Below are positions 1,561 through 4,140 of a DNA stretch of 64,000 nt, piece by piece. The DNA lies in NCBI RefSeq assembly GCF_016907275.1, contig NZ_JAFBBP010000001.1, forward strand, positions 3,896,001-3,960,000, read 5' to 3'. Numbering within the stretch: position 1 is the first letter of the stretch; every line of letters begins with the position of its first letter. The translations under genes were made by a program, and so were the position numbers. This stretch comes from Micromonospora luteifusca. Its GTDB lineage: Bacteria; Actinomycetota; Actinomycetes; Mycobacteriales; Micromonosporaceae. The notes beneath the pieces were generated by a model, which was not told where the DNA came from, searched no databases, and was given only the letters and a program-made list of their open reading frames with translations.

Positions 1561-3627
1561 CTAGAGCAGGGTCAGCTGCTCGGCTGCCGATGGTGGCGGC
1601 GGCTCGGGCAGGTTGCGGTTGTCGCCCCGTTCGCCGCGGTGCAGCCCGTGCCGGCGTGCCGCGATCCGCACCCGGGCGGTCAACTCCCGCTGGTACGCCT
1701 GCGGGGCGTACGCACCGGCCCGGTAGAGCTCGCGATAGCGGGGCACGAGGTGCGGGTGCTCCCGGGCCAGCCAGTGCGCGTACCACTCCCGGGCGCCGGG
1801 GCGTAGATGCAGGGGCAGGGCGGTCACGCTGGTGGCACCGGCTGCGGCGATCGCCGACACGGTGGCGTCGATCGACTCGTCGCTGTCGCTGAGGCCAGGC
1901 AGGATCGGGGCCATCAGCACCCCGACGGAGAGGCCGGCGTCGGTGAGCGCCCGGACCGCGTCCAGCCGGCGGCGTGGATGCGGCGTGCCCGGCTCGACGG
2001 AACGCCAGAGCTGTTCGTCGACGAACCCCACCGAGAAGGAGATGCCCACTGTGGTGACCTCGGCGGCCTGACGCAGCAGGGGCAGGTCGCGAAGGATCAG
2101 CGTGCCCTTGGTGAGGATCGAGAACGGGTTGGCGAAGTCCTGCAGGGCCGCGATGATCTGTGGCATCAGCCGGTAGCGCCCCTCGGCCCGCTGGTAGCAG
2201 TCGACGTTGGTGCCCATCGCCACGTGCGCGCCCCGCCACTTCGGCGCGGCCAACTCGCGCCGGACCAGCTCACCGGCGTTGACCTTGACGATCACCTTCC
2301 GGTCGAAGTCCGCACCGGCATCGAGATCGAGGTACGTGTGAGTGTTGCGGGCGAAGCAGTTGTGGCTCACCACCCCGTCGGCGATGAAGTCCCCGGTGCC
2401 AGTGGTGATGTCCCAGAGCGGCAGCTCCAGCCCGAGCGCCTGAATGTCGACAACCCTGAGGTCCGCCTTGCACTTCAGTGCGGCGCCCTCGATCGAGCGC
2501 TTCCTGGTGATGGCCGGGTCGGTCAGGTGGAAGAACCGAAGCCGGGCGGGAAGACCCCCGGTCAATCTGATCTCCCGCACACGGTTGGGTCGGCCGCGGT
2601 CTTCGAGCACGCAGGTGAACCCGAACCGGCGCAGCGCCTCCGTCGTCTGGTCGAGGATCGCGTCGTCGCTGTTGCTGATGCGCAGGATGCCCCTGCTGCA
2701 ACTGCCCTCGGCGTCGAAGATGCCTGCCAGGAAGCCGAGCCGCCATTCGTCGCTGGGACTGACCGGCCATTGGACCAGCTCGGTGATCCTCTCGATGTCC
2801 CGCTGTTTGGAGGTGCGGATGGCCGACAGGGCTTGGCGCGTGGCGCTGGCCGGAGTGAACGAGAAACGCTTCGTTTCGATGCCCTCCTGGGCAAGGTAAC
2901 GCTCACTCCTGCTCAACGCCTCGTCATCGACCAGCGCCAGACGGAACCGATGCACAACCCCGTAGGAGTACGAGAAGGTGCCGAGATGTGCGTCCCCCCG
3001 GACCATGCCGCAGAGGTAGCCCCGACGGTAGTCGGGTGACTCCTTCGGCCCGGGTGCGAAACGGCCCGTGCCGATCAGGCGATTGTTGGTGGTCAGGTAA
3101 GGGCGCTGACCGGCGCCCTGCATCGTCCCGGTGACGTACTTCCAGCCACGATCCGAGAGGAACCGGTGGTCACCGCTGGCGATGAGCGTGGTGCCGTCCG
3201 TCAAGGTGACTCGGTACGCAGGCTTCACGGTGGACCATTTGTCCAGCACTGTGGTGACGACGTATCGGCGGTATGCGCCGCGTCGCTCGGTCCCATAGAT
3301 GCGGTCGCCGGGCTCCAGCTCGCTGATCGGCTTCGTGCGGCCGTCCGCCATCAAAATCGGGGTGTCACCGCCCAGGCAGTAAACACAAGCATGGGAACAG
3401 CCCCGGTACGGGTTGATGGTCCATTCGAAGGGGACGCGGGACTGCCCGGGCACCCGGTTGAGGATGGACTTGGCCTGGACCTCGTAGAAGGTCATCCCGG
3501 CGAACTCGGGGGTGTCGAACGTGCGGGCGACGGCGCCGGGCAGCGCCAGCGGCAGGGGTGGCGTCGCTGGCGCTGCCCGCTCGGGGTCTCCCTCAACCGG
3601 GGGAGCGGTGAGGTTGTCCCAGCGCAT
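1561..3627 (-). CDS. Intein-containing Rv2578c-family radical SAM protein (SplB-like)
   Basis: The 688-residue precursor has an N-extein (1-83), an intein (84-423) and a C-extein (424-688). Splicing would give a 348-residue radical SAM protein, about the length of mycobacterial Rv2578c (COG1533, related to spore photoproduct lyase). The spliced cluster motif reads GCSHACVYCFARNTH. Its third cysteine is also the +1 splicing nucleophile, so the Fe-S site is complete only after splicing. The intein starts with Cys, ends in SHN and carries two LAGLIDADG-type motifs (GYLCGMVRGDAH at ~203, LAGIFDAEGS at ~300). The start MRWDNL was preferred over an upstream GTG-frame start because a LexA-like box at 3637-3652 would otherwise lie inside the coding region. 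The substrate is unknown; a role in DNA repair is inferred. Confidence 0.93.
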   Translation of the reverse strand: MRWDNLTAPPVEGDPERAAPATPPLPLALPGAVARTFDTPEFAGMTFYEVQAKSILNRVPGQSRVPFEWTINPYRGCSHACVYCLGGDTPILMADGRTKPISELEPGDRIYGTERRGAYRRYVVTTVLDKWSTVKPAYRVTLTDGTTLIASGDHRFLSDRGWKYVTGTMQGAGQRPYLTTNNRLIGTGRFAPGPKESPDYRRGYLCGMVRGDAHLGTFSYSYGVVHRFRLALVDDEALSRSERYLAQEGIETKRFSFTPASATRQALSAIRTSKQRDIERITELVQWPVSPSDEWRLGFLAGIFDAEGSCSRGILRISNSDDAILDQTTEALRRFGFTCVLEDRGRPNRVREIRLTGGLPARLRFFHLTDPAITRKRSIEGAALKCKADLRVVDIQALGLELPLWDITTGTGDFIADGVVSHNCFARNTHTYLDLDAGADFDRKVIVKVNAGELVRRELAAPKWRGAHVAMGTNVDCYQRAEGRYRLMPQIIAALQDFANPFSILTKGTLILRDLPLLRQAAEVTTVGISFSVGFVDEQLWRSVEPGTPHPRRRLDAVRALTDAGLSVGVLMAPILPGLSDSDESIDATVSAIAAAGATSVTALPLHLRPGAREWYAHWLAREHPHLVPRYRELYRAGAYAPQAYQRELTARVRIAARRHGLHRGERGDNRNLPEPPPPSAAEQLTLL
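2359..3378 (-). other. Intein with LAGLIDADG homing endonuclease
   Basis: This 340-residue protein intron is encoded in frame inside the radical SAM gene. Block A begins CLGGDTPILMADG, block B contains ASGDHRFL, block F reads LWDITTGTGDFIADG, and block G ends VVSHN followed by extein Cys. The last intein codon is 2361-2359 and the extein Cys codon is 2358-2356. The two dodecapeptide motifs indicate a DOD-type homing endonuclease, which would propagate the element into intein-free alleles. The second motif keeps an acidic residue (DAEG); the first is GMVRGDAH, with Asp preserved. Both halves therefore look intact and potentially active. Confidence 0.93.
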
Positions 3628-3636
3628 GGGCACTAT

Positions 3637-3652
3637 TCGAACACGCGTACGA
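3637..3652. promoter_or_regulatory. LexA-type SOS box
   Basis: The 16-bp sequence TCGAACACGCGTACGA matches the actinobacterial LexA operator TCGAAC-N4-GTTCGA with one mismatch in the right half. It ends 10 bases before the ATG of the radical SAM gene on the minus strand and lies about 70 bases upstream of the divergent DCC gene. From memory, Rv2578c of M. tuberculosis is a DNA-damage/LexA-regulon gene, so SOS control of this homolog is a consistent inference. Confidence 0.7.
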
Positions 3653-3720
3653 GTCGTGTGCAAGTGACCCGCCGTACACCGGTGGTCGTTCGGGTGGTCG
3701 GAGAGTGGAGGATGGACAGC

Positions 3721-4140
3721 ATGGAGACGTCGACCTTCGTCTACGACGGGGACTGCGCGTTCTGCACGCGCTGCGCCGAGTTCATCGAGAGCCGCATCCC
3801 CACCGCCGCGCGGGTGGTGCCCTGGCAGTTCACCGATCTGGACGCGCTCGGCCTCACGGCCGCCGAGTGCGAGGAGGCCGTGCAGTGGGTCGGCGCGGAC
3901 GGCTCACGCGCGGCGGGTCCGGACGCCATCGCGAAGCTGCTCGCCGCGAGCGGTCCGATCTGGCGCGTCGCCGGTGGCGGCCTGCGGTTTGCGCCGGTAC
4001 GCGCCGCGGCCTGGCCCGTGTACCGCTGGGTGGCGCGCAATCGGCACCGACTGCCGGGCGGCACGGCGGCCTGCGCTCTGCCGCAGGAGGCCCGGGAACG
4101 GCTCTACGGTCCGGCCGGTCGCCCGAGCGCCGGGGCCTGA
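3721..4140 (+). CDS. DCC-family thiol-disulfide oxidoreductase-like protein (DUF393)
   Basis: This 139-residue protein opens with STFVYDGDCAFCTRC, the DxDC-FC signature of the DCC (DUF393) family, which has a thioredoxin-like fold with a CxxC-type pair. The second conserved stretch (PWQFTDLDALGLT, VQWVGADG) is also typical, and the length is normal. The start at 3721 has GGAGG 9 bases upstream; the earlier in-frame ATG at 3712 has no room for a ribosome site. The gene converges with the HTTM gene and their 3' ends overlap by 37 bases. DCC and HTTM domains are often neighbours or fused, so a shared membrane redox process is possible but not shown here. Confidence 0.88.
   Translation: METSTFVYDGDCAFCTRCAEFIESRIPTAARVVPWQFTDLDALGLTAAECEEAVQWVGADGSRAAGPDAIAKLLAASGPIWRVAGGGLRFAPVRAAAWPVYRWVARNRHRLPGGTAACALPQEARERLYGPAGRPSAGA

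Follow-up and report, generated by a model that had tools for sequence, protein, structure and literature searches.

An intein in the third cluster-cysteine codon of a Micromonospora luteifusca radical SAM gene: probably a mobile element at a residue that the host cannot change

Why should an intein reside in the codon of an iron-sulfur ligand? The question is raised by a Micromonospora luteifusca gene in the 64-kb window studied here (the whole stretch of DNA analysed, 64,000 nucleotides), which encodes a radical SAM protein of the Rv2578c family interrupted at the third cysteine of its CX3CX2C motif (Table 1). We consider, with a probability of roughly 0.8, that the insert is a mobile class 1 intein with an I-DmoI-type homing endonuclease, lodged in a third-cluster-cysteine codon that the host cannot change. 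This reading draws on the complete splicing residues, the endonuclease motifs and the empty alleles of close relatives, and further on decayed endonucleases with intact splicing residues and on related inteins at the same residue in other families, all of it sequence evidence.

Table 1. Features of the interrupted radical SAM gene and its surroundings (window coordinates; a slash marks a splice junction).
Feature	Position	Strand	Details and basis
Rv2578c-family radical SAM gene with intein	1561..3627	(-)	stop codon included; precursor 688 aa; PF04055, NF038136, NF038135
N-extein, residues 1-83, C-terminal end GCSHACVY	3379..3627	(-)	junction reading and empty sites of congeners
Cys77 = Cys-7, first cluster Cys of CX3CX2C	3397..3399	(-)	invariant, 33-row alignment
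Cys81 = Cys-3, second cluster Cys; might pair with Cys1 in a disulfide	3385..3387	(-)	invariant, 33-row alignment
Intein, residues 84-423, 340 aa, Cys1...His-Asn	2359..3378	(-)	junctions; TIGR01445 29.5 bits
Intein Cys1, at the third-cluster-Cys place of intein-free homologues	3376..3378	(-)	junction reading, congeners
Block B SGDHRF	3160..3177	(-)	sequence reading
First LAGLIDADG motif GYLCGMVRGDA, Asp present	2989..3021	(-)	I-DmoI match over residues 199-365
Second LAGLIDADG motif FLAGIFDAEG (with preceding Gly GFLAGIFDAEG), Glu present	2704..2733	(-)	sequence reading
Intein C-terminal His-Asn	2359..2364	(-)	HN/C common to 120/120 homologues listed (best 120 of 7993)
Cys+1, which on splicing becomes the third cluster Cys, Cys84 in mature numbering	2356..2358	(-)	junction reading
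C-extein, remainder of the radical SAM domain, residues 424-688	1564..2358	(-)	PF04055 at precursor 460-584
Putative SOS (LexA) box TCGTACGCGTGTTCGA	3637..3652	(-), gene's strand	9 nt before ATG; 1 mismatch to consensus
Divergent neighbour, DCC1-like thiol-disulfide oxidoreductase	3721-4140	(+)	start inferred; 3712-4140 scanned

The precursor scored 914.5 bits (cut-off 700, residues 1-663) with NCBIfam NF038136, named 'intein-containing Rv2578c family radical SAM protein', and 533.9 bits with NF038135 (Rv2578c family radical SAM, curated cut-off 430). It is a member of an intein-bearing family that is already curated, in agreement with a preliminary description of this locus, which had stated that inteins are known in the family. 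The spliced protein is 348 aa long and has four cysteines: Cys77, Cys81 and Cys84, which form the CX3CX2C motif of the host family, and Cys137.

Both junctions could be read (GCSHACVY/C1LGGDT on the N-terminal side and VVSHN/C+1FARNTH on the C-terminal side); the preliminary description had placed the intein exactly, to the base, and its claim that the third cysteine is also the +1 splicing residue is borne out by the C-terminal junction. The TIGR01445 match at the intein is the only one in the genome at E ≤ 0.1. The residues of a class 1 intein are all present (Cys1, block B SGDH, C-terminal His-Asn, Cys+1). The homing endonuclease had been described as intact in appearance, and both LAGLIDADG motifs indeed carry their acids; profile and fold searches matched I-DmoI and PI-PfuI, so that the two motifs, the catalytic acids and the I-DmoI fold are found together. 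An alignment with intein-free homologues, proposed earlier as a check of the junctions, was provided by congeneric loci, 59 of the 110 read being empty and continuous across the junction, as expected of a removable insert. As far as sequence can, these features confirm that a class 1 intein, containing a LAGLIDADG endonuclease similar to I-DmoI, occupies the third cysteine of CX3CX2C. The closest named relative among the best 120 of 7993 proteins scored is from Micromonospora zamorensis, with an intein 97% identical.

The distribution of the intein was followed in 160 genomes of the genus, 150 of which had NF038135 matches, 142 above its cut-off. Reading was attempted at 111 loci and succeeded at 110, with a pattern that demanded Cys1, the last Asn and Cys+1. 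In the 59 empty loci the third cysteine runs straight into the C-extein (CxAR...), and the other 51 have an insert at this cysteine; the remaining 32 of the 142 genes, judged by match length only, comprise 27 empty genes and five with an insert. Block B (..DHRF) and the terminal His-Asn were kept in all 51 inserts. Both LAGLIDADG acids were kept in 23, including that of M. luteifusca, and 28 inserts lacked at least one endonuclease acid or motif, often through a DAEG to DAAG change. Decayed endonucleases beside intact splicing residues are the pattern of a homing cycle, as outlined in the accessible text of PMC1654191. Six mini-inteins of 150-154 aa from distant Actinomycetota also keep their junctions, and are too short for an endonuclease. 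One congeneric locus below the NF038135 cut-off (L335, G574:C505), left unread, has a frameshift near the intein start, which may be a sequencing error.

The coexistence of empty, apparently active and decayed states within one genus speaks for mobility. The persistence of decayed-endonuclease inteins in 28 of 51 loci counts against the mobile reading insofar as domestication predicts it as well; this persistence fits fixation after homing and domestication alike. By parsimony, the intein state changed 26 times among 110 tips, gain and loss being inseparable. Intein and extein distances were well correlated (Mantel r 0.72 for 50 rows, 0.75 for the 23 active and 0.82 for 27 decayed inteins); therefore, recent movement between species appears limited, and the patchy distribution may be due largely to loss.

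The codons around the empty site are unusual (examples are the Micromonospora loci L001-L006 and L008-L013). Elsewhere in the gene, third-position GC is 0.94-0.97, and the allele means, taken over rows related by descent, were 0.565 at codons -9 to -1 and 0.718 at codons 0 to 14 in the 59 empty alleles. The flanks were likewise low (0.686 and 0.788, respectively) in the 23 alleles whose endonuclease is apparently active; the 28 decayed-endonuclease alleles gave 0.825 and 0.962. Near the empty site, synonymous codon differences were about double those elsewhere (0.46-0.50 versus 0.21-0.25), and AGA and AGG made up 30% of arginine codons, versus 2% further along. Eight of nine control windows elsewhere were equal in empty and occupied alleles, and one differed slightly (p 0.04). 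Ten independent pairs on supported branches, an underpowered set, gave 4.9 versus 0.7 in the expected direction upstream (median p 0.125), and 1.8 versus 0.4 downstream (median p 1; one truncated row was scored as not low). The dip was also present in 25 more distant intein-bearing alleles (0.62-0.74 at codons -10 to +4), and was slight in 11 Streptomyces-like empty alleles (0.85-0.93).

Since the amino acids at the site are fixed, the anomaly matches the trace expected of synonymous evasion, and it is possibly the mark of evasion of a circulating endonuclease. Cautions against this reading are the low flanks of the active-endonuclease alleles, the dips outside the genus and the statement, in an excerpt of PMC3024317, that such endonucleases tolerate single synonymous changes. 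Among the papers listed from the open-licence literature, available partly as excerpts, none describes synonymous evasion at an intein site, an absence that carries little weight. Separately, in Streptomyces-like loci the likely attB repeat of phage Samy lies within the radical SAM gene, 139 nt upstream of the third-cysteine codon (PMC12924846, excerpt). A phage attB as the cause of the anomaly was rejected for Samy, since the match to its 12-base repeat is at this upstream position and not at the site; 11 of the 12 bases were found in each of six Streptomyces-like loci tested (L253-L258).

Is the third cysteine an intein site in this family only? A collection of 84,980 species (by its own description) was scanned for CX3CX[YF]C leading into an intein start; only the third cysteine was targeted, and a codon restriction was intended to exclude the CxHxC of most Rv2578c genes. 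The scan returned 41 stretches, of which 26 look real on reading and 15 were dropped as chance or intein-free (L032, L034, L040, L046, L047, L052, L054, L055, L056, L058, L064, L065, L067, L068 and L069). Twenty of the 26 carry the AmrS motif; the two tested exceed the TIGR04337 cut-off, and both junctions are readable in 11 of the 20. Four are Rv2578c/PA0069 genes (L049, L051 and L061 by test, L053 by motif), one encodes a CXXX-repeat maturase (TIGR04115, 362.8 bits, cut-off 350) and one a PapB-like protein (NF047865, 72.5 bits, below the cut-off of 340). The AmrS-type genes with third-cluster-cysteine inteins, all within L031-L071, are from Chloroflexota (13), Acidobacteriota (4) and Rokubacteria (3). 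The CXXX-repeat maturase gene, from Clostridium (L060:2167-5592, plus strand), has two inteins, one at the third cysteine of CX3CX2C. The second we take to lie at the first cysteine of a SPASM auxiliary-cluster motif.

A survey not directed at this site was made with TIGR01445 over 149 Actinomycetota genomes, 59 of which had matches, at 119 places; 118 were read and one fragment was left out. Eleven of the 118 inteins follow CX3CX2, ten in Rv2578c/PA0069 proteins (M. luteifusca included) and one in QueE. Pattern matching located both junctions in 95 inteins, of which 11 are at the third cysteine and none at the first or second. When the remaining hosts were sampled as 40 trimmed representatives, PF04055 was not one of the 25 most frequent Pfam families; at most one or two of the 40 can therefore be radical SAM hosts that escaped notice with an intein elsewhere. 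A search with the QueE intein gave 23 proteins, 14 of QueE type by motif (one named QueE); 13 of these had a readable N-junction, with Cys1 in nine and Ser1 in four. One QueE-type gene (L230:2713-4410, minus strand) has a Ser1 intein at the third cluster cysteine, most other QueE-type inteins found having Cys1. In conclusion, the third cysteine also carries predicted inteins in PA0069, QueE, AmrS, a CXXX-repeat maturase and a PapB-like enzyme. Among the papers listed from the open-licence literature, judged by title, opening of the abstract or excerpt, none describes recurrent insertion at this cysteine, although little can be made of that absence. A related intein was also observed in the alpha subunit of a pyruvate:ferredoxin oxidoreductase (P0137), at a cysteine outside any CX3CX2C motif, so the intein lineage is not confined to radical SAM hosts.

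Whether these inteins share an origin was addressed by a phmmer comparison of 129 intein rows, in which the M. luteifusca intein was entered twice. Inteins with doubtful C-ends (L145, L160, L170, L200, L222, L233 and one of L162) and the 23 of 118 survey inteins without a readable C-junction were left out of both the comparison and the tree; the tree also omitted background inteins more than 62% alike and eight Micromonospora rows. Outside Rv2578c/PA0069, the best matches of the M. luteifusca intein were those of QueE (2.7e-23) and the CXXX maturase (8.5e-18), and the best background intein scored 3.4e-10. The PapB-like intein scored 2.4e-06 (rank 50), and its own best matches were the CXXX-maturase intein (1.9e-18) and Rv2578c inteins. 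None of the 11 AmrS inteins was reported with the M. luteifusca intein at E ≤ 10. By sequence similarity, all third-cysteine inteins except those of AmrS form one group with the M. luteifusca intein. In the splicing-domain tree, AmrS inteins form one group (SH-aLRT 97), and Rv2578c and PA0069 inteins group with QueE (90, on a long branch). AU tests on 133 columns, which are weak, rejected none of three arrangements: all in one clade (p 0.41), Rv2578c with PA0069 and AmrS (0.58), and all minus AmrS (0.71). We read this as a single lineage that spread through several families of radical SAM enzymes, AmrS having probably acquired its inteins separately.

The preliminary description had also linked the intein to SOS control. 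The box itself stands: 7-9 nt ahead of the start, a match of at least 10/12 was found at every one of the 110 congeneric loci, the 59 empty as well as the 51 with an intein, compared with 13 of 2000 random stretches from the 64-kb window. The case for it rests on this conservation within the genus. Within the window, box matches with up to two mismatches occur at chance (four observed versus 2.4 expected), and outside the genus the box is weaker or elsewhere in most loci examined (11 Streptomyces-like loci have 9-10/12, 30-66 nt before the start). A conserved promoter LexA box, as in genes of the SOS regulon, is thus predicted independently of the intein; being as frequent at empty as at intein-bearing loci, it assigns SOS control to the host gene, and a coupling of SOS and intein is rejected. 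We take a radical SAM gene of Streptomyces venezuelae, vnz_31145, to be the likely orthologue of this gene. Membership of vnz_31145 in the LexA regulon, with 19.97-fold induction by mitomycin C, is reported in the accessible text of PMC9380542. The neighbouring DCC1-like gene was also considered as an intein partner and rejected as intein-linked, since it adjoins 54 of the 59 empty and 47 of the 51 intein-bearing loci.

If the intein is a mobile element, the third-cysteine codon would be a secure residence, in which neither imprecise loss nor an amino-acid change is tolerated. With Cys1 and Cys+1, splicing would follow the ordinary course of N-S shift, transthioesterification and Asn cyclisation in the reducing cytosol, and assembly of a working cluster by the enzyme would need prior splicing. 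Oxidation may stall the precursor through a Cys81-Cys1 disulfide, as reported for the MoaA intein of Pyrococcus abyssi (Pab MoaA); such stalling would then be a side effect of the chemistry rather than an evolved switch. SOS induction would act on host-gene transcription, whether the intein is present or absent.

The preliminary description held that no cluster can be bound until the intein has left. The sequence does not bear this out: because the first intein residue is a cysteine, CX3CX2C formally survives in the precursor, where Cys1, the splicing nucleophile, takes the place of the third ligand and Cys81 lies at -3. Such a precursor might bind metal, form a Cys81-Cys1 disulfide, or neither. 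Redox control of an intein in a radical SAM host has been described before: a Cys-3/Cys1 disulfide redox trap is reported for the P. abyssi MoaA intein in the available parts of PMC10663303 and PMC3922620. The M. luteifusca precursor has the same arrangement, a cysteine at -3 beside Cys1 (GCSHA-C-VY/C1), and by analogy with those papers Cys81 is a potential partner of Cys1.

A retained redox switch is the strongest competitor of the mobile reading, albeit an unlikely one: a Cys81-Cys1 disulfide would stall splicing in oxidised cells, enzyme would be made only when its cluster would survive, and the intein would be kept for that purpose. The Pab MoaA precedent, the reported redox sensitivity of the Mycobacterium tuberculosis SufB intein (as cited in PMC6195587, excerpt) and the persistence of inteins with decayed endonucleases agree with it. 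Cys-3 occurs in 16 of the 118 survey inteins, and 11 of these 16 are inserted at the radical SAM third cysteine, where the motif supplies it; as a cluster ligand, however, it is conserved in any case. The intein is missing from close relatives (59 of 110 loci read), and cysteine redox inhibition is no universal intein trait, according to the same excerpt of PMC6195587. Moreover, Ser1 is present in four of the 13 readable QueE inteins; these cannot form the Cys-3/Cys1 disulfide, and the trap is therefore unnecessary for residence at the third cysteine.

A broader proposal, which we judge improbable, is that the third cysteine is a recurrent docking site for at least two intein lineages, with Cys1 standing in for the ligand and a precursor cluster or Cys-3/Cys1 disulfide gating splicing by iron or redox state, a coupling that would be inherent in the motif whatever the host; wherever the endonuclease circulates in a population, empty alleles would evade it by recoding confined to the codons near the site. 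Slighter still is the chance that Cys77, Cys81 and Cys1 of the precursor bind a 4Fe-4S cluster or metal that shields the nucleophile and makes splicing depend on iron status. The spelling of CX3CX2C with Cys1 as third cysteine is in its favour, but Cys1 would have to remain accessible to the cluster within the intein fold, and the Ser1 forms of QueE count against it; the predicted precursor model (mean pLDDT 70.4) allows no conclusion on geometry at the junction, because residues 76-85 are below 50. Least credible is a degenerate passenger that splices slowly or defectively and leaves the gene poorly functional in this strain, for while congener L335 is frameshifted near its intein start, the M. 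luteifusca gene is free of any such lesion, with intact splicing and endonuclease motifs and a complete C-extein.

Three features raise this locus above the routine: the stand-in position of Cys1, the recurrence at the same ligand across radical SAM families, and the natural experiment offered by Micromonospora. That inteins recur at one iron-sulfur ligand suggests that they establish themselves in codons that the host cannot change, and the recurrence allows a comparative test of cluster- or redox-gated splicing. Micromonospora, a non-pathogenic genus, makes the question of whether inteins are regulators or parasites tractable, with alleles that have no intein, an active-looking endonuclease or a decayed one as natural controls.

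Among known systems, Pab MoaA shares with M. luteifusca a radical SAM host and a Cys-3 able to pair with Cys1, but belongs to another host family, and the disulfide reported there, in the accessible parts of its sources, is in M. luteifusca a possibility. The two-motif LAGLIDADG fold is common to I-DmoI, PI-PfuI and the M. luteifusca endonuclease (TM-score about 0.7-0.78 to I-DmoI, by target length), whereas identity is 14-17%. MoaA has a second cluster motif. Because of this motif, and because the sources on its intein, as far as available, name no cysteines, we do not equate the Pab MoaA insertion site with the third cysteine. The AmrS (TIGR04337) inteins are inserted at the third cysteine of CX3CX2C as in M. 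luteifusca, but differ in length (10 of the 11 that could be read at both ends have 444-445 aa) and mostly end in SN/C. The QueE, TIGR04115, PapB-like and PA0069 inteins have the residue in common with that of M. luteifusca and reside in other host enzymes, those of QueE being sometimes Ser1 and the PapB-like one a 155-aa mini-intein. The nearest counterpart is the NF038136 family itself: host family, intein and insertion are alike, and nothing essential sets the M. luteifusca protein apart.
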